This document shows, piece after piece, positions 50,469-64,000 of a DNA stretch of 64,000 bases. Source of the DNA: Dysgonomonas hofstadii (GTDB lineage Bacteria > Bacteroidota > Bacteroidia > Bacteroidales > Dysgonomonadaceae). Position 1 is the stretch's first letter. The number at the start of each line of letters is the position of its first letter. The stretch covers positions 248,001-312,000 of the forward strand of contig NZ_JACIEP010000001.1 in assembly GCF_014196915.1 (NCBI RefSeq). The letters run 5' to 3'. A model generated the notes under the pieces. The model was not told where the DNA came from. It ran no database searches and worked only from the letters and a program-made list of their open reading frames with translations. The position numbers and the translations under genes were made by a program.

Positions 50469-53400
50469 TTAAAATGTAACATCTAAACCTATTGTCCAGC
50501 TCGAACTCATCGGATATTTAGCTCCCGAACGCGCGTCTCTTAGTTCCGGATCCCAGAATTTTATGCTGTCCCATGTATACAGGTTTTGTCCTTGTACATA
50601 GAGCCGTATTCCATCCAGTTTTACTTTCTGTACAAGTTTCTTGCTGAATGTATAACCAAATTCTACATTTTTCAGGCGTAGGAAACTAGCGTTGCGATGC
50701 CACCAAGTACTCCATTCCTGGTTGTGAGAATAAGATGTCGAGTGTATTCTCGGGAAAAGAACATCCTGATTGTATGGATCTTCGAATCTCCAGCGGTCTA
50801 GTCCTTCTGTGCGCACCGATTGTTGCTCAAGCCCTCTCAGGAAAGGGACGAAGTTTTCGGCTTTGTTCAATAGGTTGGCAGACACGTTTCCTGTTCCCTG
50901 GAAGAATACACCTACGTTAAATCCTTTCCATTCCGCATTTAATCCGAATCCGTAAACTATTCCCGGAGAAGATGACGGATAGAAGCCATTGTCGTAAGTG
51001 CGGTCGTATGTATCGATAACGCCGTCCCCATTCAGGTCTTTGTATTTAATATCACCAGGAGCAACTACTGCACCCGGAACAGGCAGGCCTTCTTTCAGTT
51101 TATAGGTTTGTTTCTTTGTATGAGGATCGGTAGTGATATTGAAATCATCCGGAGTATACAAACCTTCGGCAATATATAAAAGCGGTTGTCCTATACTCTG
51201 TCCTGTGTACTGTTGGTATTTATAAACCTGAGGAATTTCGTCATACTCGGTTACCTTATTTTTAGTATAAGTAAAGTTTCCTCTGGCAGATAAAGACACG
51301 TCTCCTATTTCGTGACGTATAACTATATTGGCATCTATGCCCTGGTTTTCGGTTTTACCGAAATTTTGCATAGGACTTACGCGAAGTCCGGATGCAGACG
51401 GGATAGTTTGACGACGAATCAGGATAGAACTACGTTCGTTATGGAAATAGTCAAAGCCCATATCCACTTTTCCTCTGAAAAGTCCTACCTCCATCCCGAG
51501 ATTGAATTTATCTTCGATTTCCCATTGTAAAAGAGGGGTTGCGTAATCACTCTCAACAATGCCACTTCCCGGATTGTTGGTGCCACCTCCGCCAGAACCT
51601 TGAGTAATACCCAGCGGATAGCCGGATGCACCTTCATTTACTTTTTCGCGATAAGGGAAACGTATATCGGTATTGTCTATTCTCACCTGATCATTTCCGG
51701 TTCTACCATATGATACCCTGAATCGGAGTTTGCTTAGAGTATTTTCTATATTTTTCATGAAGTTTTCCTGGCTCACGGTCCATGCAGCACCTACTGCCGG
51801 AAAAAATCCCCAACGATGCCCTTTTGCAAAATTTTCACTTCCCGTCATCCCGAAACTGGCTTCCAAAAAGTATTTACTGTCGAATCCGTATGTACCACGG
51901 GCAACAACACTTTGCTTGCGATAAGGCAGCATTTCTATCCCGTTGCTGCGACTCTGATATTGTGTTTCTTTCTGGTTATACAGTATTAGCCCTGTTACGG
52001 CATGTTTTTGTGCAAACGTACGGTTATAATTTAAAGATGTTTCCAGATATATTCTTTTCTCTCCCGAACTGGATGAAGACGTAGGGTTTGCCAGAGCTGA
52101 TCCTGCCTTTATCTGTTTTAGGATCAGATTTCCATCGGCATCCCGTCCTTCAGCATAGTATGATTCTGCTTCTTTGGCTCTGTCTATGCGACCCTGAGTA
52201 AATGAATCGAAACTCATTGAACCTTTCCATGATAATCCATCGGTAATGAAGTCTAGCTTTTGTTCGAGGCCTACTCTTGTTTGTACAGTTACTTCCCAGT
52301 TTTTTGTGTAACCTACGTTATTCAACAGGTTATAAGGATTAGCCCGTTCGGCATTAGCATCGGTATTGAGTGGATGGTCGGAAAATGTACCATCAGAATA
52401 AACCATTGGAATCAGATGCGTAGGGAATATGGTGAATGCGCTAAATAAGCGGTCGGCTGTGCTTCTCGGTGCATTTTGTTGGACATAGAATCCACTCATG
52501 TCGACCGTCATTTTTGTCGTTTTGGTTATATCCATATCGATATTAGATCTTAGGTTATAACGCTCGTATTTGAGATTAGCATCATAGTTTTCTATCGGAT
52601 TCCCTTTGTATATACCGTCTTCATTATAATATGCGCCAGAAACAAAGAATTTTACTTTATCGCCTCCACCTCTGAAGTTGATAGTATAGCGGCTTGTATA
52701 AGTATGATCTCTCAACAGATCCATCCAGTTTGTATTCGGATAAAGGTCGGTATCTACACCTGTGCGGTATTTTTCCAGTACATCATCAGAGAATGGTGCT
52801 ACCCAGCCAGCCAGTGGATTTCCCGCATCGTTCCATATTGCTTCGTTGTATAAATTGAGTGATCTGTATGAATCCAGAATTTCGGGCAGACGGATCGGGG
52901 TTTTCATGGCATGCTCCATATTAAAACTTATAGCTGTTTTCTGAGCCTTACCACGTTTAGTTGTAACCAAAACAACACCATTCGCACCTTCGGCACCATA
53001 TACTGCAGTTGCAGCTGCATCTTTCAGTACGGTAAATGTTTCTATCTCGTCAACAGGGATGTTGCTGAAACTTCCTCTGGGAACACCGTCTACTACGATC
53101 AGCGGACTTGTACCTCCGGCAAAGGAACTTACGCCACGAATCCAGAAGTTAGAGTCGTCATAGCCCGGTTCGCCCGATGGCTGGATGGCTATTACCCCTG
53201 CTATCTGTCCGGCGATACTGTTAGCTAGGCTACGTCCGGTTACGGCAAGTTCTTTTGACGTGACTGTGTTTATCGCAGAAACTACACTTTCTTTTTTCTG
53301 TTGCCCGTAACCTACGATGACTACATCTTCCAGGTCTACTGATGATTCTACCATACGGATATTTATCGAGGTTTCTCCTTTTTTTACCTGGCGGGTTTCG

Positions 53401-53729
53401 GTGTTGAATCCGATATATTTGAATTCGAGAGTTTGTCCTTCAGCAGCCCTGATACTATAACGTCCGTCAACGTCCGTCATAACTCCGGTCGTAGTTCCTT
53501 TTACTGTTACTGTAACGCCGATCAAGGGGTTTCCGTCTCCTTCTGTAACCAATCCTGATATAGTGATCGCGGATTGTGTTATTTCATTGGTTACTGCTAC
53601 ATCATTCTTATCGGCTATAGCGTATACACTATTCGCAGTGCAGAATAATGACACGATTACCAGTAACATCGCTTTTTGCATAGGTACATGTCTGTGCCTT
53701 ATAGCGGTTATTTTTTCTGATATTTTCAT
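50469..53729 (-). CDS. SusC-like TonB-dependent transporter (second locus)
   Basis: A 1086-residue outer-membrane transporter. The signal peptide ends at about residue 37 (SVYA); an alternative ATG at 53681 (codon 17) would give a shorter and more typical leader. A carboxypeptidase-D-like domain (about 55-135, ISGLVTEGDGNPLIGVTVTVKG) precedes the plug with VIVGYGQQKKES and ATAVYGAEGANGVVLVTTKRG. The barrel ends in LDVTF. It pairs with the SusD encoded 12 bp downstream and is preceded by a surface glycan-binding protein, an order different from the first locus. Cargo is unknown but should match the GH30/lyase/GH18 substrate. Confidence 0.95.
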   Translation of the reverse strand: MKISEKITAIRHRHVPMQKAMLLVIVSLFCTANSVYAIADKNDVAVTNEITQSAITISGLVTEGDGNPLIGVTVTVKGTTTGVMTDVDGRYSIRAAEGQTLEFKYIGFNTETRQVKKGETSINIRMVESSVDLEDVVIVGYGQQKKESVVSAINTVTSKELAVTGRSLANSIAGQIAGVIAIQPSGEPGYDDSNFWIRGVSSFAGGTSPLIVVDGVPRGSFSNIPVDEIETFTVLKDAAATAVYGAEGANGVVLVTTKRGKAQKTAISFNMEHAMKTPIRLPEILDSYRSLNLYNEAIWNDAGNPLAGWVAPFSDDVLEKYRTGVDTDLYPNTNWMDLLRDHTYTSRYTINFRGGGDKVKFFVSGAYYNEDGIYKGNPIENYDANLKYERYNLRSNIDMDITKTTKMTVDMSGFYVQQNAPRSTADRLFSAFTIFPTHLIPMVYSDGTFSDHPLNTDANAERANPYNLLNNVGYTKNWEVTVQTRVGLEQKLDFITDGLSWKGSMSFDSFTQGRIDRAKEAESYYAEGRDADGNLILKQIKAGSALANPTSSSSSGEKRIYLETSLNYNRTFAQKHAVTGLILYNQKETQYQSRSNGIEMLPYRKQSVVARGTYGFDSKYFLEASFGMTGSENFAKGHRWGFFPAVGAAWTVSQENFMKNIENTLSKLRFRVSYGRTGNDQVRIDNTDIRFPYREKVNEGASGYPLGITQGSGGGGTNNPGSGIVESDYATPLLQWEIEDKFNLGMEVGLFRGKVDMGFDYFHNERSSILIRRQTIPSASGLRVSPMQNFGKTENQGIDANIVIRHEIGDVSLSARGNFTYTKNKVTEYDEIPQVYKYQQYTGQSIGQPLLYIAEGLYTPDDFNITTDPHTKKQTYKLKEGLPVPGAVVAPGDIKYKDLNGDGVIDTYDRTYDNGFYPSSSPGIVYGFGLNAEWKGFNVGVFFQGTGNVSANLLNKAENFVPFLRGLEQQSVRTEGLDRWRFEDPYNQDVLFPRIHSTSYSHNQEWSTWWHRNASFLRLKNVEFGYTFSKKLVQKVKLDGIRLYVQGQNLYTWDSIKFWDPELRDARSGAKYPMSSSWTIGLDVTF

Positions 53730-53767: not shown

Positions 53768-55090
53768 TTATTCTTCAGTAACTGTGATTGTTACAGGTAA
53801 GCTGGACGCATTTATGGTAAATACGTATACTTTTCCTGTTACAAGAGTTTTGCCTGATTTCAGCCTGATGTTGCCATCTGTTGCCGGAGCTTCGAAAATG
53901 TCGCTGACAATGCTGATCCTGTCTTTCGTGAACTCGTTGCCCCAACCTCTCTGATAGAAGAATTTAAAATTAACGCCGCCAGATGAAGGTCTTAATGTGG
54001 TTCCGGCAATAAATTTAATTTGGAATGTTTTGTTTCCTAGAGGAGCTGTTGCGATTCCTTTGTCAGCATTCCAGTTGATAGAATTACGTGCGTAAGAAGG
54101 ATTTCCTACGTAGCCGTCACCTATTATCCAGATAGTTCCTTCTCCTGTAGTAGAATTGAAAACGGCAAGCGCATCACCTATCATCGGTTCTATTCTGAAA
54201 TATTTAAGATTGGCGTCGGCTGTGATCCGGTATTTACCATCTTTGGCGCGGAAAGTGAAAGAACCATCATTGTTTGTATCCAAGAATGTAGGGTCTATCC
54301 ACCAGTCGTTCAGGTCGGGATATCCGCCGATTACAATTGTTTGGTTTTGAGTGAATTCTTGTTCCAGAATACTTAATCCATTTGATGGATCGGGGAATAA
54401 ATGCCTGGCAAAGGATGGTGGAACAAACGGCCTTCCTTCATATGTGAGGGTATTGAACGAAATACCATATTCGCCTACCTCGTCGCTGAGGAAAGGGATA
54501 GAGTCTGTCTGGTTTTCTTTTATTATCCTGTTTTCTTTTACCCATCCGAAACTTATTTCATTGCCTCTTTCGCCATACGCAGGAGCAACAATAAGCGCAG
54601 GCGTATACTGCGATGGAAAAACTTCGCTGGCGACATAAAGATGCTCTCCCGTCGAACTAGGTTTCATCTGATATTCTCCTGCTTCAGTCTTTAATATCAG
54701 GTATGGGAATTGAGGACGGGAAAGGTTTATACTGGTACTTGATATAGCAAAATCAAAATCCTTATTCTTAACAACAAACTTCAGTTCGGCTGTTCCGTCA
54801 GGAATATTTCCCAGGAATGGAATAAATAGTTTACCGGAATATGTTCCCGGATTATTTACCGGAATAAAAGTCTCAGATACAAGAATATCACTGTAATAAA
54901 GTATAGCCTGGATTTTGTTTAATGGATCATTCCCATCGACAGTGACCGAAAAAGGAATGCTATCTCCGAAATAAGCAGAAGCCGCTACATCGAAAGACAC
55001 TAAATTCGGTATTTTATCCTTATCGTCATCGCAAGCTGCGAAACAGAAAAGGATTGCAAGCATTAGAATAAAAAATGTGCATTTTTTCAT
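53768..55090 (-). CDS. Surface glycan-binding lipoprotein (second locus)
   Basis: A 440-residue lipoprotein (lipobox FAAC, Cys20). It has an N-terminal Ig-like domain (about 25-125) followed by three or four beta modules with aromatic patches, for example NDWWIDPTFLDTNNDGSFTF, NSINWNADKGIATAPL and KFFYQRGWGNEF. These resemble the DUF5121/DUF5125-type binding proteins encoded beside GH30 enzymes in beta-1,6-glucan loci. No catalytic motif is apparent. It lies between the GH30 gene and susC and is probably the surface protein that recruits the polysaccharide. The family call is from overall pattern and not certain. Confidence 0.75.
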   Translation of the reverse strand: MKKCTFFILMLAILFCFAACDDDKDKIPNLVSFDVAASAYFGDSIPFSVTVDGNDPLNKIQAILYYSDILVSETFIPVNNPGTYSGKLFIPFLGNIPDGTAELKFVVKNKDFDFAISSTSINLSRPQFPYLILKTEAGEYQMKPSSTGEHLYVASEVFPSQYTPALIVAPAYGERGNEISFGWVKENRIIKENQTDSIPFLSDEVGEYGISFNTLTYEGRPFVPPSFARHLFPDPSNGLSILEQEFTQNQTIVIGGYPDLNDWWIDPTFLDTNNDGSFTFRAKDGKYRITADANLKYFRIEPMIGDALAVFNSTTGEGTIWIIGDGYVGNPSYARNSINWNADKGIATAPLGNKTFQIKFIAGTTLRPSSGGVNFKFFYQRGWGNEFTKDRISIVSDIFEAPATDGNIRLKSGKTLVTGKVYVFTINASSLPVTITVTEE

Positions 55091-55131
55091 AATAAATTTT
55101 GGCCTTTAATTGTTAGATAATTTAAATAGTT

Positions 55132-56697
55132 TTATTTTGCCCACCTGTAAGAGACCACAGATTTTGCCGGGACTTCGAATACGAAATGTTTTTTATTATC
55201 AGATATGGTTATTTTTTTACTGCTGCTGTTTTTGTTAAGTAATACCATTGCATAGGTGCCGTCGGTATTTTCGAATGCCGAATATATAAATCCGTCCTCG
55301 AAGAATCCCTTTGTGCCGATGCGGACGGCTCCGGGTTTTACGACCGATGACATATGTCCTATGATGTAATAATGGGAATTCCGTGTTATTGTTCTGAAAT
55401 CGGACAGGCTGATGTCTACTGCTCCGTAACATGTTTTACAACCTCCGTCACGCCATGGTCCCCGCGATGTGTCGAGCATAAGGTTCCATACAATAACGGC
55501 TTTGCACCAATTGTTGACAGTACCCAACGCCACATTCTCCATATCAGCCATCAGGCGTGAGTTCAGGTCTTGTCCGTTATTCCATGTGCCAATAGAGGTT
55601 TCTGTAAAAATGAGTTCTTTATCGGGTTGCCCGTTGTGGATATTGATAAGTTCGCTACGGTTTCCGCCATAGTCATGGTAAGCGGCTCCTGTTAAGTATT
55701 TTGCCGCATCCGTGTCCTGATATATTTTGAGAGGATAGCTTTTTTGACTTGCAATGTTATCATAGTTATAGTTATGGTCGAAAGCATAGACCTTAGGATG
55801 TAACCCGGATTTCTCCAACTGGGGGCCTAGTGCTGTTTTAATAAAATCTCTTTGTTCTTCCCAACCCATGTATAAAGAGGCTGAATTCTTTCTGTTCAAG
55901 GGCTCATTTTGAATGGTGATAGCCGTGATAGGTATTCCCTCTTTTTCAAAAGCCTTAATCCATTTTACAAAATAAGTGGCATAATCCTGATAGTATTTAG
56001 GGTTAAGTTGCCCGCTTGTCCATGAGTTGTAAGGTTGCAGGTCGCTCAGATTATTTACTTTCATCCAACGGGGGCAAGTCCAGGGCGAACCTAGTATTTT
56101 AATTGAAGGATTAATTTTTAGAATATCTTTCAATATTGGGATAACATAATCCTTTTCTTCGCTTTGAAGGGCAAAATTTTCGATGCCCTCTTCATCGCAA
56201 CAGGTATATTCGCTGAGTGAGAAGTCGGAGCAACCGATAGAGATACGGATGTAGCTGTAGCCCAAGCCGTCCTTCGGATCGAAAGTCTCTTTTAGAAATT
56301 TATATCTGTCTTCTTTGTCCATCCTTAGCAGGTTGAAGCATGTGGAGCCTGTTACCGCAGCTCCGAAACCATCCATTTCCTGAAATTTTTCGGAAGGATC
56401 GATCGTAATAGTAGATGGCGACATATTGCTTTTATCGCTGAAACTAACCCCTGTCCGGTGAAGATCCATAGACCGGTTTGTGGTTGTCACAATGATGCTT
56501 ACATCTTTATTATCCGGAGTTTCTCCTGGTTCTTCTTTCTTTATATCTTCATCTGGAGAGTTGCTGCTGCATCCCCATCCCATAAAAGAAATATTACAAA
56601 GAAGTAACAGAAGGAAAGCTCTTTTTAGCTGATGAACCAGTTGACTTATGAAAATCGGTTCGGTAGATGTTGATGGTTTGTTTTTTTGTCTAATCAT
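55132..56697 (-). CDS. GH30 glucanase-type lipoprotein (subfamily 3-like)
   Basis: A 521-residue lipoprotein with an unusually long 42-residue leader before the lipobox (MGWGC, Cys43). The GH30 barrel starts FQEMDGFGAAVTGSTCFNLL; SYIRISIGCSDFSLSEYT and SPWTCPRWMK are family motifs. The acid/base is Glu265 in TIQNEPLN and the nucleophile Glu366 in IFTETSIGTW. A C-terminal beta-sandwich ends KSVVSYRW. The pattern is that of GH30_3, where Bacteroidota members are surface endo-beta-1,6-glucanases. It is the first gene of the long operon after the promoter region and next to a binding protein and SusCD, as in known beta-1,6-glucan loci. Confidence 0.9.
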   Translation of the reverse strand: MIRQKNKPSTSTEPIFISQLVHQLKRAFLLLLLCNISFMGWGCSSNSPDEDIKKEEPGETPDNKDVSIIVTTTNRSMDLHRTGVSFSDKSNMSPSTITIDPSEKFQEMDGFGAAVTGSTCFNLLRMDKEDRYKFLKETFDPKDGLGYSYIRISIGCSDFSLSEYTCCDEEGIENFALQSEEKDYVIPILKDILKINPSIKILGSPWTCPRWMKVNNLSDLQPYNSWTSGQLNPKYYQDYATYFVKWIKAFEKEGIPITAITIQNEPLNRKNSASLYMGWEEQRDFIKTALGPQLEKSGLHPKVYAFDHNYNYDNIASQKSYPLKIYQDTDAAKYLTGAAYHDYGGNRSELINIHNGQPDKELIFTETSIGTWNNGQDLNSRLMADMENVALGTVNNWCKAVIVWNLMLDTSRGPWRDGGCKTCYGAVDISLSDFRTITRNSHYYIIGHMSSVVKPGAVRIGTKGFFEDGFIYSAFENTDGTYAMVLLNKNSSSKKITISDNKKHFVFEVPAKSVVSYRWAK

Positions 56698-56752
56698 ATG
56701 TATTCGATTTACGGTGTTTTATGAAATGTTCAGGTTTAGATATTTTTCAATG

Positions 56753-56760
56753 CAAACATA
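56753..56760 (-). promoter_or_regulatory. Promoter -7 box for the second-locus operon
   Basis: The minus strand reads TATGTTTG, an exact TAnnTTTG match, 56 bp before the GH30 start. A TTTG (minus strand, 56776-56779) lies 15 bases upstream, closer than the usual 19-21. It lies between the regulator's terminator and GH30, so a promoter is expected here. Confidence 0.45.
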
Positions 56761-56922
56761 TTTAGATTGGAAATGCAAAAATTTGATAAAACTAAAAAAG
56801 TGAAATGTTAAATTTCATAATTTGCTGATAAACATATTGTTGACATGCTGTCTGGAGGTTGAATAAGTGGAAAAAACACAAATAATTAAAGTTATTTTTA
56901 TCACATGAAAACAACTTTTAAT

Positions 56923-56953
56923 GAAAAATCCCGGCATTTTAACTTGTCGGGAT
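56923..56953 (-). terminator. Terminator of the TPR/HTH regulator gene
   Basis: On the minus strand ATCCCG (56953-56948) pairs with CGGGAT (56933-56928) and is followed directly by TTTTCAT. It lies 33 bp after the regulator stop codon and separates the regulator transcript from the GH30-led operon. Confidence 0.75.
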
Positions 56954-56985
56954 CGTAATATATTGAGAGTGGAACTTAACGGTTT

Positions 56986-58641
56986 TTATTTATGGAATGT
57001 ACTAATCTTTTTTACAGTCCATTCAAAATCTTCTCTTGATATTTTTGCTTTGTTTTTGATCTTCGCTCGGTAATTATATATTGTGTTGACCGAATAACCA
57101 AGAAAGTTAGCAATTTTGGTACTGTCGTCAATGCCAAGCCGCATGAGGGCATATATGCGAAGCTCGGTATTCAGGACTTCTCCTTTTTTCAATATGATTC
57201 TCTCATCATCTTGTAATAAAGAATTGAATTTATCTACAAAGTCGGGGAATAGATGCATAAACATATTGTCGAAGTTTGTGAAAAATTCTTTGAGTTCTTC
57301 CTCCTTCAACTGATTATTTTTGGTGATCTTGAATAGGTTTTCTATTTCTTTATTCTGAATTTTTTTATTTACCATTTTCCGGTATTCATCCATTTTTTCT
57401 ATATATTTCGAACATTGATCGAGAAAATATCCGATATATTCTTCTTTTATATAATTAGCCTCAGTTACCTCAATGTTTATATTTTTGAGGTTATTATTCA
57501 TATTATGTAATTTCTGATTGAGGGCATTTAGCTCCGTATTTGCTTCTTTAAGCCGTTTGCTGATTAAAATACCTTTCCTCATTTGTTTGTATACATAACA
57601 TACCGATATGATCAGCAATATGGATAAGACACTGGTAATAATAAGGGAAATGCGGAGCTTTTTTCTCTGTTCGTTACTCTTCGCCTGATAGGCTTTGTCT
57701 ATGATAGACTGGATATTAATTATCTCTGAACTTCTGATACGTGTGTTATAATCGTTGATGTTATCGAGGGAGAAGCGCACATACATATAGGCTCTGTTTA
57801 CATCTCCTTCCTGCATCAGCATATTTGCCAGGCTGGGTATAGACGCATTGTCTTTTATAGCTGACTGTATATCTGATATAGCAGATAAAATAAGATATTT
57901 TTTTTCCTGCTCTTTATCCTCTTTTTTTCTGTATAGTAACGACCTGTGAAAGGTGATTAAGGCATAACCGGGCGTTCCCATTTTAATATGTTGCAGCCGT
58001 TGATCGTTTATTTTCAGGGCTTCGTCTATTTTACCCTGTTCACGTATTGTATTCTCACGTAATCTGAGAGATATTTCTGAATTCGAATCGGCCAGGCTGA
58101 TTATAGAATCCCTGTAGGTGTTGTTTTTTTGCCAGTATCGCCATCTGTCACGGCTGTTTTGGGTGTATAGCCCCATTCCGGAATATATGCTCCGGTAAGC
58201 TGAATAATATTCTATTAATTGGGCTTTATCCAGAAACTCTCTTTTCACGTTATCGATTATGTCTATAGCTTCCTTATACATACCCAGAGCCGAAAAAATA
58301 TCTGCGGTAGCAATGGATGTTTCATTTATTTTATGAGGTTCGTTCAAAGAATATGCTATATCCATATTATAATTGAGGTAGCGTATGGCTGAATCTGAAA
58401 TAAAGGATTTGTATTCGTTGTAGATCGCAGAATTTAAAGAATACATTTTATCTATAGAATTTGCAGATCTTATTTTTTCAGATTTAAGTTCTTCTATTCT
58501 GGCTTCTTTTAATTCTACATATAAAGCACAATTCTTTATTTTATTGTCAAGTTCCTGAAATAGAGAATCCAATTCATTTTTTGAGTATAGGTTTTTAGAA
58601 AAAATGAAGATAACGACGAAGAAAAACAGTTTTTTTCCCAT
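56986..58641 (-). CDS. Membrane-bound TPR/helix-turn-helix regulator (DUF6377-like)
   Basis: A 551-residue protein with a signal peptide (about 1-20), a long helical periplasmic region with TPR-like repeats (about 25-320), one membrane helix (about 330-352, ISLIITSVLSILLIISVCYVY), a cytoplasmic coiled coil (about 355-470, KRLKEANTELNALNQKLHNM) and a C-terminal LuxR/GerE-like helix-turn-helix (about 490-535, LGIDDSTKIANFLGYSVNTIYNYRAKIKNKAK). There is no kinase or receiver domain. Proteins of this layout lie beside SusCD loci and likely sense a sugar or envelope signal and activate the adjacent operon. It is transcribed alone, upstream of GH30, in contrast to the HTCS of the xyloglucan locus. 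Confidence 0.85.
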   Translation of the reverse strand: MGKKLFFFVVIFIFSKNLYSKNELDSLFQELDNKIKNCALYVELKEARIEELKSEKIRSANSIDKMYSLNSAIYNEYKSFISDSAIRYLNYNMDIAYSLNEPHKINETSIATADIFSALGMYKEAIDIIDNVKREFLDKAQLIEYYSAYRSIYSGMGLYTQNSRDRWRYWQKNNTYRDSIISLADSNSEISLRLRENTIREQGKIDEALKINDQRLQHIKMGTPGYALITFHRSLLYRKKEDKEQEKKYLILSAISDIQSAIKDNASIPSLANMLMQEGDVNRAYMYVRFSLDNINDYNTRIRSSEIINIQSIIDKAYQAKSNEQRKKLRISLIITSVLSILLIISVCYVYKQMRKGILISKRLKEANTELNALNQKLHNMNNNLKNINIEVTEANYIKEEYIGYFLDQCSKYIEKMDEYRKMVNKKIQNKEIENLFKITKNNQLKEEELKEFFTNFDNMFMHLFPDFVDKFNSLLQDDERIILKKGEVLNTELRIYALMRLGIDDSTKIANFLGYSVNTIYNYRAKIKNKAKISREDFEWTVKKISTFHK

Positions 58642-58943: not shown

Positions 58944-59222
58944 ATGAAAGATTCAATATTAAGAGAAGTAACACCTCTGTCAAAAAGAGATTGTTTTATG
59001 ATATTTTCGCGGGTAAAACAACATTTTACCTTTCCTATACATGTACATGCCGAATATGAATTGAATTTTATAGAAAACGGAGCCGGTTCCAAACGCGTAG
59101 CAGGAGATAGTATCGAAGAAATCGGAGAACTGGAACTGACACTGATAACAGGTTCCAGCCTGGAGCATGGATGGCTCGATCATAAGTGCACTTCGAAAGA
59201 AATAAAGGAAATAACGATTCAT
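58944..59222 (+). pseudogene. AraC-family regulator, N-terminal fragment (truncated by deletion)
   Basis: The first about 92 codons encode the cupin-like ligand-binding half of an AraC-type regulator (TPLSKRDCFMIFSRVKQHFTFPIHVHAEYELNFIENG, then DLTL-like and HGWLDHKCTSKEIKEITIH). Similarity stops at EITIH (59221). The frame then runs on for 28 unrelated codons to a stop at 59306, because it has entered SusD sequence out of frame. The roughly 190 residues that should follow, including both helix-turn-helix motifs, are absent. The product could not bind DNA. It is probably the lost regulator of the mannan-type locus to the right. Confidence 0.85.
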
Positions 59223-60106
59223 CTTTGTTATTTGCCATACAATGCACAAATGACGGATACGGATATGGTAATCCGAGAAATGTTTCTCTTTCAAGAAACG
59301 CATTGATCACTCTGGGTTCTTCATGGGGAGCAGGGAAAGGCCCTACGCTTAGCTTGCAGGAAACATTTGACCCGAGAGACGCACGCCGTTATTATACTTA
59401 CATGAGAAATGGAGACTCGTATAGTAATCTGGGTGGTGGTGGCTATACTTACCGCAATTTTTCGGAAGATGAATCTACTGAAGCTGCCAATGAAATGCTG
59501 GCTCACGTCAGGAAATATGTAATCGGGGCGAATGCCGATTGCGATGGTTTGGCAGGAGCCACTAACCAGGATGCAGGGAATAACCTTTATCTGCTCCGTT
59601 TGACTGATGTATATCTTTGCTATGTTGAGGCTTGCATTGCTTCCGGTTCTTCTACGTCTGATGCCCTGGCTATAGATGTGTTTAAACAGGTGCGTACTCG
59701 TGCCGGACTTTCTTATGATGCTACATCAATCACTTATGATGACCTTATCAAAGAACGCCGTGTAGAGTTTGCACTTGAAAGTGTCAACTTCTTTGATGTC
59801 AAGAGAATGAGCTATCGCGATATGAGCAAAGCCCTATCTTATCTGAATGGCATGAAGCGTGAACGTCAGTATGTTTCTAATGCAAGTTATACATGGCAGG
59901 AGCGTAATGCCAGCGGTGCGTATCATGGAGGATTTACCCCAATTAATCCTAGTGCCGATCCTTCAGGAAAGGGTACTATTTTCTTCATCAATGAAGATGC
60001 CGCATCTATTACAATTACAGAAAAGAATCTAGTGTTACCGGTTCCGGCCGAGACTATAACAAAAACTCCTTCTATAACTCAGGAGCCTGTCGATTATCCA
60101 TTTTAA
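59219..60106 (+). pseudogene. SusD-like protein, C-terminal fragment (5' half deleted)
   Basis: From about 59219 the second frame encodes authentic SusD C-terminal sequence: SLLFAIQCTNDGYGYGNPRN, then LQETFDPRDARRYYTYM, NLYLLRLTDVYLCYVEACIASG, DLIKERRVEFALESVNFFDVKRMSYRDM and LVLPVPAETIT near the end. About 295 codons remain of a protein that should be 500-600. There is no signal peptide or lipobox; the first ATG in the frame (59186) lies in AraC sequence. The N-terminal half and the susC gene that normally precedes susD are missing. The fragment would not be exported. The genes that follow remain intact. Confidence 0.88.
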
Positions 60107-60126: not shown

Positions 60127-61401
60127 ATGAAAAAATATATATTTAATGTAATTGTCGCACTGTCAGCACTTATTGCATTTAACTCGTGCTCTGATGACGA
60201 TAACGGAGGATCGGGAAAAGGAACTCCGGTGGTAAGATATGTGCGGCCATGCGATGCCTCAGTTTCGGACTCATTGTTGACCGGAGCATATCTGGGTAAT
60301 CAGATTGCCATTATAGGAGAAAATCTGGGAAGTGTTAATAAAATATACTTTAACGACCAGAAAGCGAAACTGAACCCGAATTTTGTGACAGACAATGCTA
60401 TTATAGTGACTATTCCTTCAGGTATTCCGGGAGAGAAGGAAGATTTGATAAAGTTATATACGAATAATGACTCTTGCTATTATTCATTCGAAACATTAGT
60501 TCCTGCTCCATCTCCGCGGACAATGACTTGCGAATATGTAGAGGATGGAGATATTGCCTATATTCAGGGACTTTACTTTATTCATGAAGATGCAAATCCT
60601 TTAACGGTCACTTTTGCCGGAGGACTGAATGCTGAAATTATAAGTTATGATCTAAATAATATAGAGGTTCGTGTTCCCGCAGGTGCACAGAGTGGTCCTA
60701 TAGAAGTGACTTCTGTATATGGAACAAGTAAAAGTTATTTCGACTTCCGTGATCAACGCAATATTGTTCTCGATTTTAATAATGGCAATTATCCGGACTA
60801 TGACTATTTCTTTGGCTGGCATGGAGGAAAAGGAGTTACCTCTGATAATGGAATAAATGGGAATTATTTGATTTTCTCCGGAGATCTTGGTGGAGACGGA
60901 TCAAGTACAGATGCTGATTTCTGTTTCGATCGCTGGACATATACACCGGACGATCCTGACTTCTTCGATGCCAGTGCGTTAAGCAAATATGCAGTGAAGT
61001 TTGAGGCTAAAGTAATAGGAGACTGGTCGGCATGTGCATTCCAGGTTATTTTCACAGGAGTTGACGAGGTTTGGCTGAACTGGCAAAATAATGGTAACTG
61101 GCCTGACTATGCAGGTACTCATGGTGGCAATGAAACATGGAAACGGGATAGTACCTATCCTCGCGGATTGTGGACGCCTTGGGCGGAGACAGGTTCGTTC
61201 ACTACAGATGGCTGGATTACTGTGACAATGCCATTGAGCGACTTTAAATACGGTATAAACGGAGAGTCGATTAGCAGCCCTAAACCTGCCGGACATTATT
61301 CAGGAATTACTCTGTTTGTTGGAGCCGGAGGTGCTGAGGGGACAGACTGTTCTCCGACGATCTATGTTGATAATGTACGTGTAGTAGAAGCTGAAAGATA
61401 A
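60127..61401 (+). CDS. TIG-domain surface glycan-binding lipoprotein
   Basis: A 424-residue lipoprotein (lipobox FNSC, Cys21). Two IPT/TIG Ig-like domains come first (about 35-125 with GNQIAIIGENLGSVNKIYF, and about 130-210 with RVPAGAQSGPIEVTSVYG). A C-terminal beta-sandwich of about 200 residues follows (IVLDFNNGNYPDYDYFFGWHGG to YVDNVRVVEAE), rich in Trp and similar to the xylan/mannan-binding domain of SGBP-B proteins. It lies 20 bp after the SusD fragment in the usual position of a surface binding protein. It appears intact, although its transporter has been lost. Confidence 0.85.
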   Translation: MKKYIFNVIVALSALIAFNSCSDDDNGGSGKGTPVVRYVRPCDASVSDSLLTGAYLGNQIAIIGENLGSVNKIYFNDQKAKLNPNFVTDNAIIVTIPSGIPGEKEDLIKLYTNNDSCYYSFETLVPAPSPRTMTCEYVEDGDIAYIQGLYFIHEDANPLTVTFAGGLNAEIISYDLNNIEVRVPAGAQSGPIEVTSVYGTSKSYFDFRDQRNIVLDFNNGNYPDYDYFFGWHGGKGVTSDNGINGNYLIFSGDLGGDGSSTDADFCFDRWTYTPDDPDFFDASALSKYAVKFEAKVIGDWSACAFQVIFTGVDEVWLNWQNNGNWPDYAGTHGGNETWKRDSTYPRGLWTPWAETGSFTTDGWITVTMPLSDFKYGINGESISSPKPAGHYSGITLFVGAGGAEGTDCSPTIYVDNVRVVEAER

Positions 61402-61418: not shown

Positions 61419-63383
61419 ATGAATTTCACGAATATATATAACAGACTAATATTAATGATGCTGGCAGTACTTGTTGTCTCATTCACAGCTTGTTCCAACG
61501 ATGATGACGATAATGCGGGTTCGGTGTTACTCGAGGCTTATGGCCCGAGTCCCGCCCTGCGTGGCAGCCAGCTTACCTTTATCGGTAAAAATCTGGATAA
61601 AGTAACAAAAGTTATCTTACCTGATGATATAGAGATAACCGAAATAGAAGTAATAAGCAGTGAAAAAATCAAGGTGACCATTCCTCAGAATGCAGCTGAA
61701 GGTTATGTAAAACTGATTACACCGAATGGAGAACTGACCTCAAAAACTCTACTTACATATACCGAACCTATTTCTATTTCGAGTATAGCCCCGTCTCCGG
61801 TAAAGGCAGGACAGACACTGACTATCGAAGGTGACTATTTGAACCTTATACAAAAAGTGATCTTTGCAAAGGATGTTGAAGTAACTTACAAAGACTTCCT
61901 TACTTGGGAACGTGGGAAAATAGAAGTGACTGTACCGGATAAGGCTCAGACGGGAACTATTATTCTTGCCGATACTGCAGCTATTCCTATCGAACTGGAA
62001 TCGGAAATAGAACTACAGATTGTTCTTCCTTCTGTAGAGCAAATAGTTGACTTAACTAATAAGAAACCCGGAGGCTTAATCGAGTTTACAGGCAGCGATC
62101 TCGATCTGGTTAAATATGTGATATTACCGGATGGCGCAGCCGGAGACACTGTCGACTTTAAAGTGGAAAACAATAAACTGTCATTCACCATTACAGCTGG
62201 TGTTACCGATGGTGTTGTAGTGATGGTTCCGGCATCAGGGGTACATGTTTCCATCGCCAATATTGGTATGGCCATACCTACGGAATTGGTTGCGACTCCT
62301 TCAACAAATATCAGAACCGGAACAGTGATCACTATAACCGGGGTGAATATGGACTTGGTGACAAATGTAACTTTCCCGGGTGTAGAGGATTCGGTAGATC
62401 CATCTTCGCAAAGTGGAACAGAAATAAAAGTGACTGTTCCTGAAGGTACAATCAGTGGAAATCTCACATTGAATACTGCCAGTGGAAATTCTGCAACAAT
62501 AGCCGTTACAACATTGAAACCGGCAGTAACATCATACAGTCCGTCTTCGGTTCCCGCAGGAGAGAGTGTAACATTGAACGGTACAAATCTTGATCTGGTG
62601 GCAAAAGTAACATTTGGAGGTAATAAAACAGTGGAAGTGACTCCTGCATCAGCAACGAGCTTAGTTGTAGCTGTTCCGGTTGATGCAGAAAGTGGAGCTC
62701 TTACCCTTACTATGAAGAATGGTGAGACTATAACAAGTCCGTCGTTGACAGTAACTAAGCCGGAATTTTGTTATATCCCTGTACTTCCGGGAGATGATGA
62801 GGAAATTAAATCAGGAACGATATTGACCATTAGTGTTGAAAACGGAGATAAACTGACAGGGGTTCAGGTAAATGGAACTAATGTACAGTATATACTTCAG
62901 GGAAATACGCTTAGTATATCTGTTCCAAGCAGTGCAAGTGGTAATACCAACTTTAAGCTTATTTCTTCGAATGGAGACGTGACATATTCAATTTATGTGA
63001 TCAATTCGGCTGTAGTGGAAACAATTATATTCCAGGGGCCTTTGGCTATTACCTGGAGTGATGGAGGTAGAGCGATACTTTCAATCTCTGATTTTGAAAA
63101 TCTTAGGGCGGGCGCTATTCTTAAGCTTTATTTTACCCAAAATGATAATTGGGGACAATTACAGTTTAATTATGGTAACTGGGTTAATATGCCATTCGAT
63201 GAAATAGGAGGGGTCTATCTGACCACAGACGTTCTGGGGGATAAATCTATAAAAGAATATGAGCTGAGGCTGACGCAAGAAGGGCTGGATAATATAAGAG
63301 ATAAAACAAGCGAAGGCTATGGTATAATTATTCAGGGTTCAGATTTCACGATTGATAAGATCTCTATTATAACAGGGCGATAA
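61419..63383 (+). CDS. Six-TIG-repeat surface glycan-binding lipoprotein
   Basis: A 654-residue lipoprotein (lipobox FTAC, Cys25). Six IPT/TIG-like modules of about 80 residues start near residues 34, 117, 205, 284, 367 and 448, each with the pattern GxxLTxxGxNLDLVxKVxF and ending in GxLTLxxxxG. A C-terminal domain (about 535-654) with AITWSDGGRAILSISDFENLRAGAILKLYF and WGQLQFNYGNW looks like a carbohydrate-binding sandwich. The repeats would form a stalk that lifts the binding domain off the cell surface. It is 17 bp after the previous gene and followed by a hairpin and a GH26 gene, so its ligand is likely a mannan. Confidence 0.85.
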   Translation: MNFTNIYNRLILMMLAVLVVSFTACSNDDDDNAGSVLLEAYGPSPALRGSQLTFIGKNLDKVTKVILPDDIEITEIEVISSEKIKVTIPQNAAEGYVKLITPNGELTSKTLLTYTEPISISSIAPSPVKAGQTLTIEGDYLNLIQKVIFAKDVEVTYKDFLTWERGKIEVTVPDKAQTGTIILADTAAIPIELESEIELQIVLPSVEQIVDLTNKKPGGLIEFTGSDLDLVKYVILPDGAAGDTVDFKVENNKLSFTITAGVTDGVVVMVPASGVHVSIANIGMAIPTELVATPSTNIRTGTVITITGVNMDLVTNVTFPGVEDSVDPSSQSGTEIKVTVPEGTISGNLTLNTASGNSATIAVTTLKPAVTSYSPSSVPAGESVTLNGTNLDLVAKVTFGGNKTVEVTPASATSLVVAVPVDAESGALTLTMKNGETITSPSLTVTKPEFCYIPVLPGDDEEIKSGTILTISVENGDKLTGVQVNGTNVQYILQGNTLSISVPSSASGNTNFKLISSNGDVTYSIYVINSAVVETIIFQGPLAITWSDGGRAILSISDFENLRAGAILKLYFTQNDNWGQLQFNYGNWVNMPFDEIGGVYLTTDVLGDKSIKEYELRLTQEGLDNIRDKTSEGYGIIIQGSDFTIDKISIITGR

Positions 63384-63457: not shown

Positions 63458-64000
63458 ATGAAAAAAACACTATATACATTTTTCTGCCTGATTATAGGAG
63501 CATTGTTATTAACAACGCCTTCGTGTAATGATGTTGACGATCCTGTTATCGGTGATCCCGGGATACCAGAATTTGTGAGTAGTAATCCGGCTGATGGTAC
63601 TACAAATATTGATTTAGGAAAAGAAAATCCTAATGGTGATATGACAATAGTCCTGACTTATGATCAGAATATATTCTTCCCTTCTGCCGGGCTTGAAAAG
63701 ATTACCATAAACAATGGAGCATCTGTAACAAGCGTTTCGGGTAAATTACTAAAGCTTACAATAGAAATTACCGGATTGCAAAAAGGTGAAACCTACCAAT
63801 TGACAGTACCAGAAGGAGTGGTTGTTGGTCCTACTTACACCGGGGCACCAGAGGTTACGATCGGTTTCTCTGTAAAAGGCGATCCTGTGATAACAACTTC
63901 TCTTTGCAATCCGAATGCGACAGCTCAGGCTGTTAAACTATATGAATATCTCAGAGGCATCTATAAAGAAAAGGTGCTTTCGGGGACAATGGCCAATGTA
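63458..64000 (+). CDS. GH26 beta-mannanase-type lipoprotein, 5' part
   Basis: The first 181 codons of a lipoprotein (lipobox TPSC, Cys23). An Ig-like Big_5 domain (about 32-142, PEFVSSNPADGTTNIDLGKENPNG) is followed by AVKLYEYLRGIYKEKVLSGTMANV, which matches the start of GH26 catalytic domains in Bacteroidota mannanases. The catalytic glutamates lie beyond the window. A cell-surface endo-beta-mannanase is the likely product. It marks the truncated third locus as a mannan or glucomannan system. The family call rests on about 35 residues of the barrel, so it should be treated as probable. Confidence 0.75.
   Translation, partial: MKKTLYTFFCLIIGALLLTTPSCNDVDDPVIGDPGIPEFVSSNPADGTTNIDLGKENPNGDMTIVLTYDQNIFFPSAGLEKITINNGASVTSVSGKLLKLTIEITGLQKGETYQLTVPEGVVVGPTYTGAPEVTIGFSVKGDPVITTSLCNPNATAQAVKLYEYLRGIYKEKVLSGTMANV

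Follow-up and report, generated by a model that had tools for sequence, protein, structure and literature searches.

A beta-mannan utilization locus of Dysgonomonas hofstadii, very probably broken by a single recent deletion of some 5 kb

In Dysgonomonas hofstadii, a gene cluster predicted to bind and cut beta-mannan is preceded by the start of an araC-type regulator gene that runs directly into the end of a susD gene. What happened to this locus, and what can the genes that remain still do? We analysed a stretch of 64,000 nucleotides (the window), which corresponds to bases 248001-312000 of contig 1 in a genome of 5,035,418 bases (44 contigs, completeness 99.7%), the one genome of its species in the comparison (n=1). 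Set against intact loci in the genus, the evidence indicates that a beta-mannan utilization locus has very probably lost about 5 kb in a single recent deletion, likely between two short and imperfectly matching direct repeats, an event that would have put the locus out of order. The features concerned are collected in Table 1.

Table 1. Positions of the features discussed, in the window and in other loci. Coordinates in L025, L027, L028 and L031 are counted in turned orientation.
Feature	Position	Strand	Basis
5' remnant of araC-type regulator gene, ~93 of 292 codons	58944..59221	+	Alignment to relatives
Deletion joint, 18 bp alignable to both araC and susD of relatives	59204..59221	+	DNA alignment
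Open susD remnant (3' part) for the last 294 residues; start and N-terminal half gone	59222..60106	+	Pfam, relatives
Surface glycan-binding protein (SGBP) gene, SGBP_B_XBD and TIG, intact	60127..61401	+	Pfam, relatives
TIG-repeat lipoprotein gene, second SGBP-like protein, intact	61419..63383	+	Pfam, relatives
5' part of open GH26 gene (556 aa), which continues beyond the window as far as the equivalent of 65128	63458..64000	+	
59-bp block copies	L022 5127-5185; L025 4745-4803; L027 3825-3883; also L023, L024		Source loci of the weight matrix
Further block copies, score 10 to 26	L026 7392; L028 10876; L029 1569, 4256; L031 11735; L025 16375		Weight matrix
Remnant of the decayed locus in G015	L030 6050-6777 (turned orientation); L095		

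Two gene remnants and their intact counterparts

The first remnant is part of ORF 58944-59306 (+), whose 120-aa product starts as an AraC-type regulator. Its Pfam AraC match is weak (E 0.038, below the Pfam cut-off), and its identity is therefore secured by relatives with the intact gene, to which it is 83.5-90.1% identical over 91 codons (L022-L025). HTH_18, which occupies residues 206-283 of an intact relative's AraC, is absent, so that the locus is left with an AraC devoid of its HTH as linked regulator. The second remnant lies in ORF 59186-60106 (+), a 306-aa frame corresponding to the C-terminal part of SusD, with a strong SusD_RagB match (1.8e-29, profile positions 72-295 of 297). Intact SusD has about 565 residues in relatives, and the open frames in five other genomes are 562-576 aa long. 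The preliminary description had called the two genes fused, which is accurate for the DNA and not for the product: the araC and SusD parts are in different frames and there is no joint protein.

A DNA-level search of 41 genomes (own included) with the araC-susD query gave matches in 14, again counting the window's own, all of them in its genus. Identity over the araC part was 67-82% across the 13 other matching genomes, over a shorter stretch in some, and 77-81% for query bases 1-278 in G014, G017, G018 and G024. In these four genomes the query's two halves sit on one contig about 5 kb apart; in between lie a susC gene, with a product of about 1059 aa, and the remaining parts of araC and susD. 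The susC of G018 is in two frames (L025 4886-8064, turned orientation), a frameshift or a sequencing error in a locus that is otherwise complete.

The SusD remnant, searched at E <= 1e-60 in 25 genomes of the genus, was matched in six including its own, and the order araC-susC-susD-SGBP-SGBP-GH26 is found in all five others, four of them close and one distant (G009, with SusC 57% and SusD 47% identical to those of L023). Likewise, SusC and a near full-length SusD stand side by side in 19/19 further loci, two of which are G024 and G017 again. The fused araC-susD order, which the preliminary description had asked to be sought in relatives, was seen in none of the loci examined. Two named strains, the nearest named relatives of the window in the genomes compared, illustrate the difference. 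Dysgonomonas mossii DSM 22836 (L024/L054) and Dysgonomonas sp. 511 (L022/L053) have orthologous araC, susD, SGBP, GH26, GH5 and AXE1-family genes in the same order as the window, yet in both araC, susC and susD are intact and the 59-bp block described below is present. Upstream of araC, to judge from first ORF residues, the genes of these strains differ from those of the window and from each other.

Beyond these loci, SusD C-terminal parts 75-79% identical to the window's occur amid varying neighbours in L055-L060, L070 and L071, records of Bacteroides, Mangrovibacterium, Sunxiuqinia, Paludibacter and Barnesiella, and a susCD-SGBP module may possibly have spread laterally across those genera.

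A probable deletion between imperfect direct repeats

Compared with L022, L023, L024 and L025, the window lacks 5137, 4938, 4938 and 4935 bp, respectively, comprising the 3' two-thirds of araC, the araC-susC spacer, the entire susC gene and the first half of susD. This bears out the earlier proposal of a single event of about 4-5 kb that took the DNA-binding half of the regulator, susC and half of susD. Equally, the joint had been described as a few bases wide with a change of frame, and DNA alignments agree: AraC similarity stops at 59221 and SusD similarity starts between 59204 and 59231, and the joint falls within 18 bp (59204-59221) that can be aligned with either gene. The susD counterpart of these 18 bp is the GNN motif region, read in another frame than araC.

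Short direct repeats, also anticipated, are visible in two of the four close relatives and not in the others. By eye, the 18 bp at the joint, a single stretch in the window, differ by one base from araC of L023 and by two from susD of L024. Within L023 and L024 the araC and susD sites are identical to each other at 15/18 bases (best of nine offsets), a level reached by only two (L023) and six (L024) of 1,446,480 araC-susD site pairs. In L022 and L025 the match is 9/18 and 7/18, no unusual score among the site pairs. L023 and L024, whose SusD proteins are 97.3% identical, are closely related and thus do not count as two independent witnesses for the repeat pair. Since the pair is unseen in L022 and L025, and the two sites of the ancestor are not visible, we infer the repeat mechanism: a short imperfect direct repeat in araC and its counterpart in susD likely bounded the deletion of the 5 kb, and slipped mispairing or another RecA-independent route would have joined the one to the other.

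Could the joint instead be a chimera or collapse made by the assembler in a strain whose locus is intact? The assembly is a draft in 44 contigs, which leaves room for such errors, but at 18 bp the stretch shared by the two sites falls short of the word sizes that assemblers usually employ, and this nearly complete assembly should then have the missing 5 kb on some other contig. The whole genome (G000, 5.04 Mb) was searched with L023 DNA that starts at the araC joint, ends close to mid-susD and covers most of what is missing, as well as with the L023 proteins SusC, SusD and AraC. The DNA found only short matches, the best-scoring being 71% identical over 169 bp. The best-scoring SusC had 40% identity along its length (some short partial matches went higher, to at most 53%), and after the remnants themselves the best-scoring SusD and AraC were each 30% identical, so that no orthologue of any of the three was found in the genome. 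An assembly error is accordingly very unlikely; a culture variant could conceivably be the source of the joint.

The same search bears on two further readings. The separate, complete AraC/SusC/SusD set that the preliminary description had considered did not turn up: no copy of the missing parts was found in the genome. Relocation or duplication of the importer was rejected on this ground, nothing orthologous having been found. It would also be scarcely credible that the window has caught a reversible, phase-variable SusC/SusD arrangement in one of its states. SusC/SusD shufflons are known in Bacteroidota, but no alternative susC or susD of the lost pair's family was found in the genome, and there is therefore nothing to switch back.

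A deletion thus remains the preferred reading, and its age can be gauged from the SusD remnant. Its 291 codons contain no stop, and its dN to the four relatives (0.115-0.151) does not exceed that among the relatives themselves (0.119-0.161, save 0.013 for the close pair L023-L024). This comparison gives no sign of relaxed selection in the remnant, in what is a weak test given that synonymous distances from the window are saturated (at least 1.69). The absence of stops limits neutral drift to about 0.099 substitutions per site (P 0.05), a bound that uses the stop-making fraction and assumes a remnant that is untranslated and freely drifting. Because the remnant is free of stops and ordinarily diverged, the deletion looks recent; it seems to fall late on the branch, at a date that saturated synonymous distances do not provide.

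Lost importer, regulator and operator-like block

What did the deletion remove in functional terms? The SusC/SusD importer pair expected of a beta-mannan locus is gone, with susC absent, susD reduced to its C-terminal remnant and no orthologue found elsewhere. The genome does encode other SusC/SusD pairs near mannan-type genes. A further GH26 gene at C3:426133-427311 has in its vicinity a GH16 gene, a SusC/SusD pair and two genes of FAD-oxidoreductase type; the SusC of this pair is 36% identical to that of L023 across most of its length and 42% in roughly the final 100 residues. Four further GH130 genes are found elsewhere, one of which, on C23, adjoins a SusC/SusD pair (SusC 39% identical to that of L023). 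These two pairs may be regarded as candidate importers of mannan products, and no more than candidates; the best-scoring SusC (C11, 40%) has no GH26 nearby. Next to the locus, the window carries a divergent cluster at 53768-58641 (-) with genes for a GH30, a DUF5016/DUF5121/DUF5125 protein and a DUF6377 protein, and a SusC match on the same strand at about 50472-53564.

The lost spacer carried more than a gap between genes. All five intact loci (L022-L025 and L027) have in it a conserved block of 59 bp, located 82-86 nt before susC and containing TTTG-N20-TAnnTTTG, which we take to resemble the Bacteroidota promoter consensus. We infer that this block is a candidate target of the AraC-type regulator. 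A weight matrix built from the five blocks, in a scan run without L030, L032 and L034, recovered further copies (Table 1), the one at L025 16375 preceding an esterase gene. The top chance score was -2.9 in 30 single-base shuffles of the window (+ strand). Weaker matches were obtained in L054 (4.4) and L027 (-4.0), the score in L033 (-13.6) was not above chance, and there was no second copy in L022 (-27.4) and none in L036 (-23.8) or L085 (-28.0). In the window the block was not found on either strand, where the best score was -20.9.

On a wider scale, a 31-base pattern of the block, with up to 3 mismatches, matched 10 of the 25 genomes of the genus and none when read backwards. Eight of these ten belong to the 14 genomes with an araC-susD DNA match (G016 and G020 lie outside). 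The link between araC and the block is nevertheless imperfect, since six of the 14 (G000, G003, G010, G012, G013 and G015) are without a pattern match at this threshold, G012 having a block copy by weight matrix. The window's own genome (G000) thus has no match to the 31-base pattern; a shorter, looser pattern gave 20 matches there vs 13 for the control, none with fewer than 2 mismatches. TTG-N18-22-TAnnTTTG is likewise absent from the + strand between 58001 and the equivalent of 78000, a weak test as exact sites are rare. As judged from these comparisons, the deletion also took the predicted main promoter/operator-like block. What this comparison of loci brings to light is an operator-like block conserved close to mannan genes in several Dysgonomonas.

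The remaining cluster and its probable fate

Downstream of the joint, 13 genes are open, the two SGBP genes included. Past the window end follow the rest of the GH26 gene and genes for a GH5 (cellulase family), an AXE1-family esterase, a GH2, a probable mannosidase and a GH130, then an MFS carrier, an epimerase, a GH3 and two more GH26s, the cluster ending at contig position 328974. The three GH26 genes predict endo-mannanase activity, and the surface glycan-binding lipoproteins are represented by the SGBP_B_XBD and TIG protein and by the TIG-repeat protein (lipoprotein signal by eye). The GH130 phosphorylase, epimerase and MFS carrier score above the Pfam cut-off, which places them at family level. 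One cluster protein, for which Pfam gives a GH2_C match only, with no single passing stretch, we take to be a GH5_7-type mannosidase. The downstream genes had been described as intact, which holds for the SGBPs and the open GH26 gene, and as a surface apparatus, which is too narrow since the MFS, epimerase, GH130 and further hydrolase genes are open as well.

This gene set is of a known kind. As described in PMC13276840, BcMUL of Bacteroides cellulosilyticus shares with the window's locus GH26s, GH5s, a CE7-type esterase (AXE1 by Pfam here), a GH130, a GH3 and an MFS carrier, and an epimerase takes part in its pathway. The window's cluster includes the epimerase gene, which in DSM 14838 sits apart on a small contig, and BcMUL has SusC/SusD-like proteins and a transcriptional protein, the very components that are broken or gone here (PMC13276840).

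Might the cluster then have been trimmed adaptively, with importer and regulator shed and the surface and cytoplasmic enzymes kept as a public good, or fed in trans? As background, public goods from glycosaminoglycans are reported in PMC9745678. All 13 downstream genes are indeed open, and reduced forms can evidently persist: G012 (L026 6316-12807) and G021 (L031 4405-17005, turned orientation) have the same araC near GH5, GH130, MFS and epimerase genes, and within the 18-19 kb examined they lack the orthologous SusC/SusD, SGBPs and GH26. By their predicted gene content, these two loci are reduced forms of the mannan locus. G012, however, keeps araC and a block copy, unlike the window, where the recognisable promoter/operator has been lost too. 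Moreover, the SusD remnant looks recent, so that open downstream genes are explicable without selection, and no SusC in the genome exceeds 40% identity among matches that cover most of the query. Adaptive trimming is for these reasons improbable.

Most likely, we are dealing with an ordinary kind of gene loss, in an unusually clear case, within a known kind of beta-mannan locus. After such a deletion the downstream genes would now give no transcript, or a weak one from the araC promoter, and uptake of mannan oligosaccharides by the SusC/SusD route would be lost; part of the locus could still be of use through a promoter that escaped recognition or through a different importer. There is a very slim chance that the surface binding proteins and the mannanase are made constitutively from the araC promoter, without an importer of their own. 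If so, mannan would be cut at the cell surface and its products released, a natural, importer-less "donor" state. No description of this deletion was among the titles found by a literature search. The locus may offer a snapshot of the onset of PUL decay, in which a single small slip costs the locus its importer, regulator and promoter at once. It also carries a warning for annotation, as 13 readable downstream genes could be annotated as functional, and a gene inventory by itself can exaggerate what an organism is able to feed on.

Another Dysgonomonas may show where this leads. In G015 (L030, L095), araC is interrupted by stops and an internal gap. After it come a 33-residue epimerase tail, a GH3 gene that is still a long open frame (770 of 772 residues matched) and a fragment of a GH26 gene. 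This is the same locus, eroded like that of the window from araC downward, with losses that differ from the window's and are larger. The two sets of losses are independent, because araC in G015 keeps a C-terminal part that is missing in the window. The window's locus would thus represent the start of a decay that G015 displays in advanced form.
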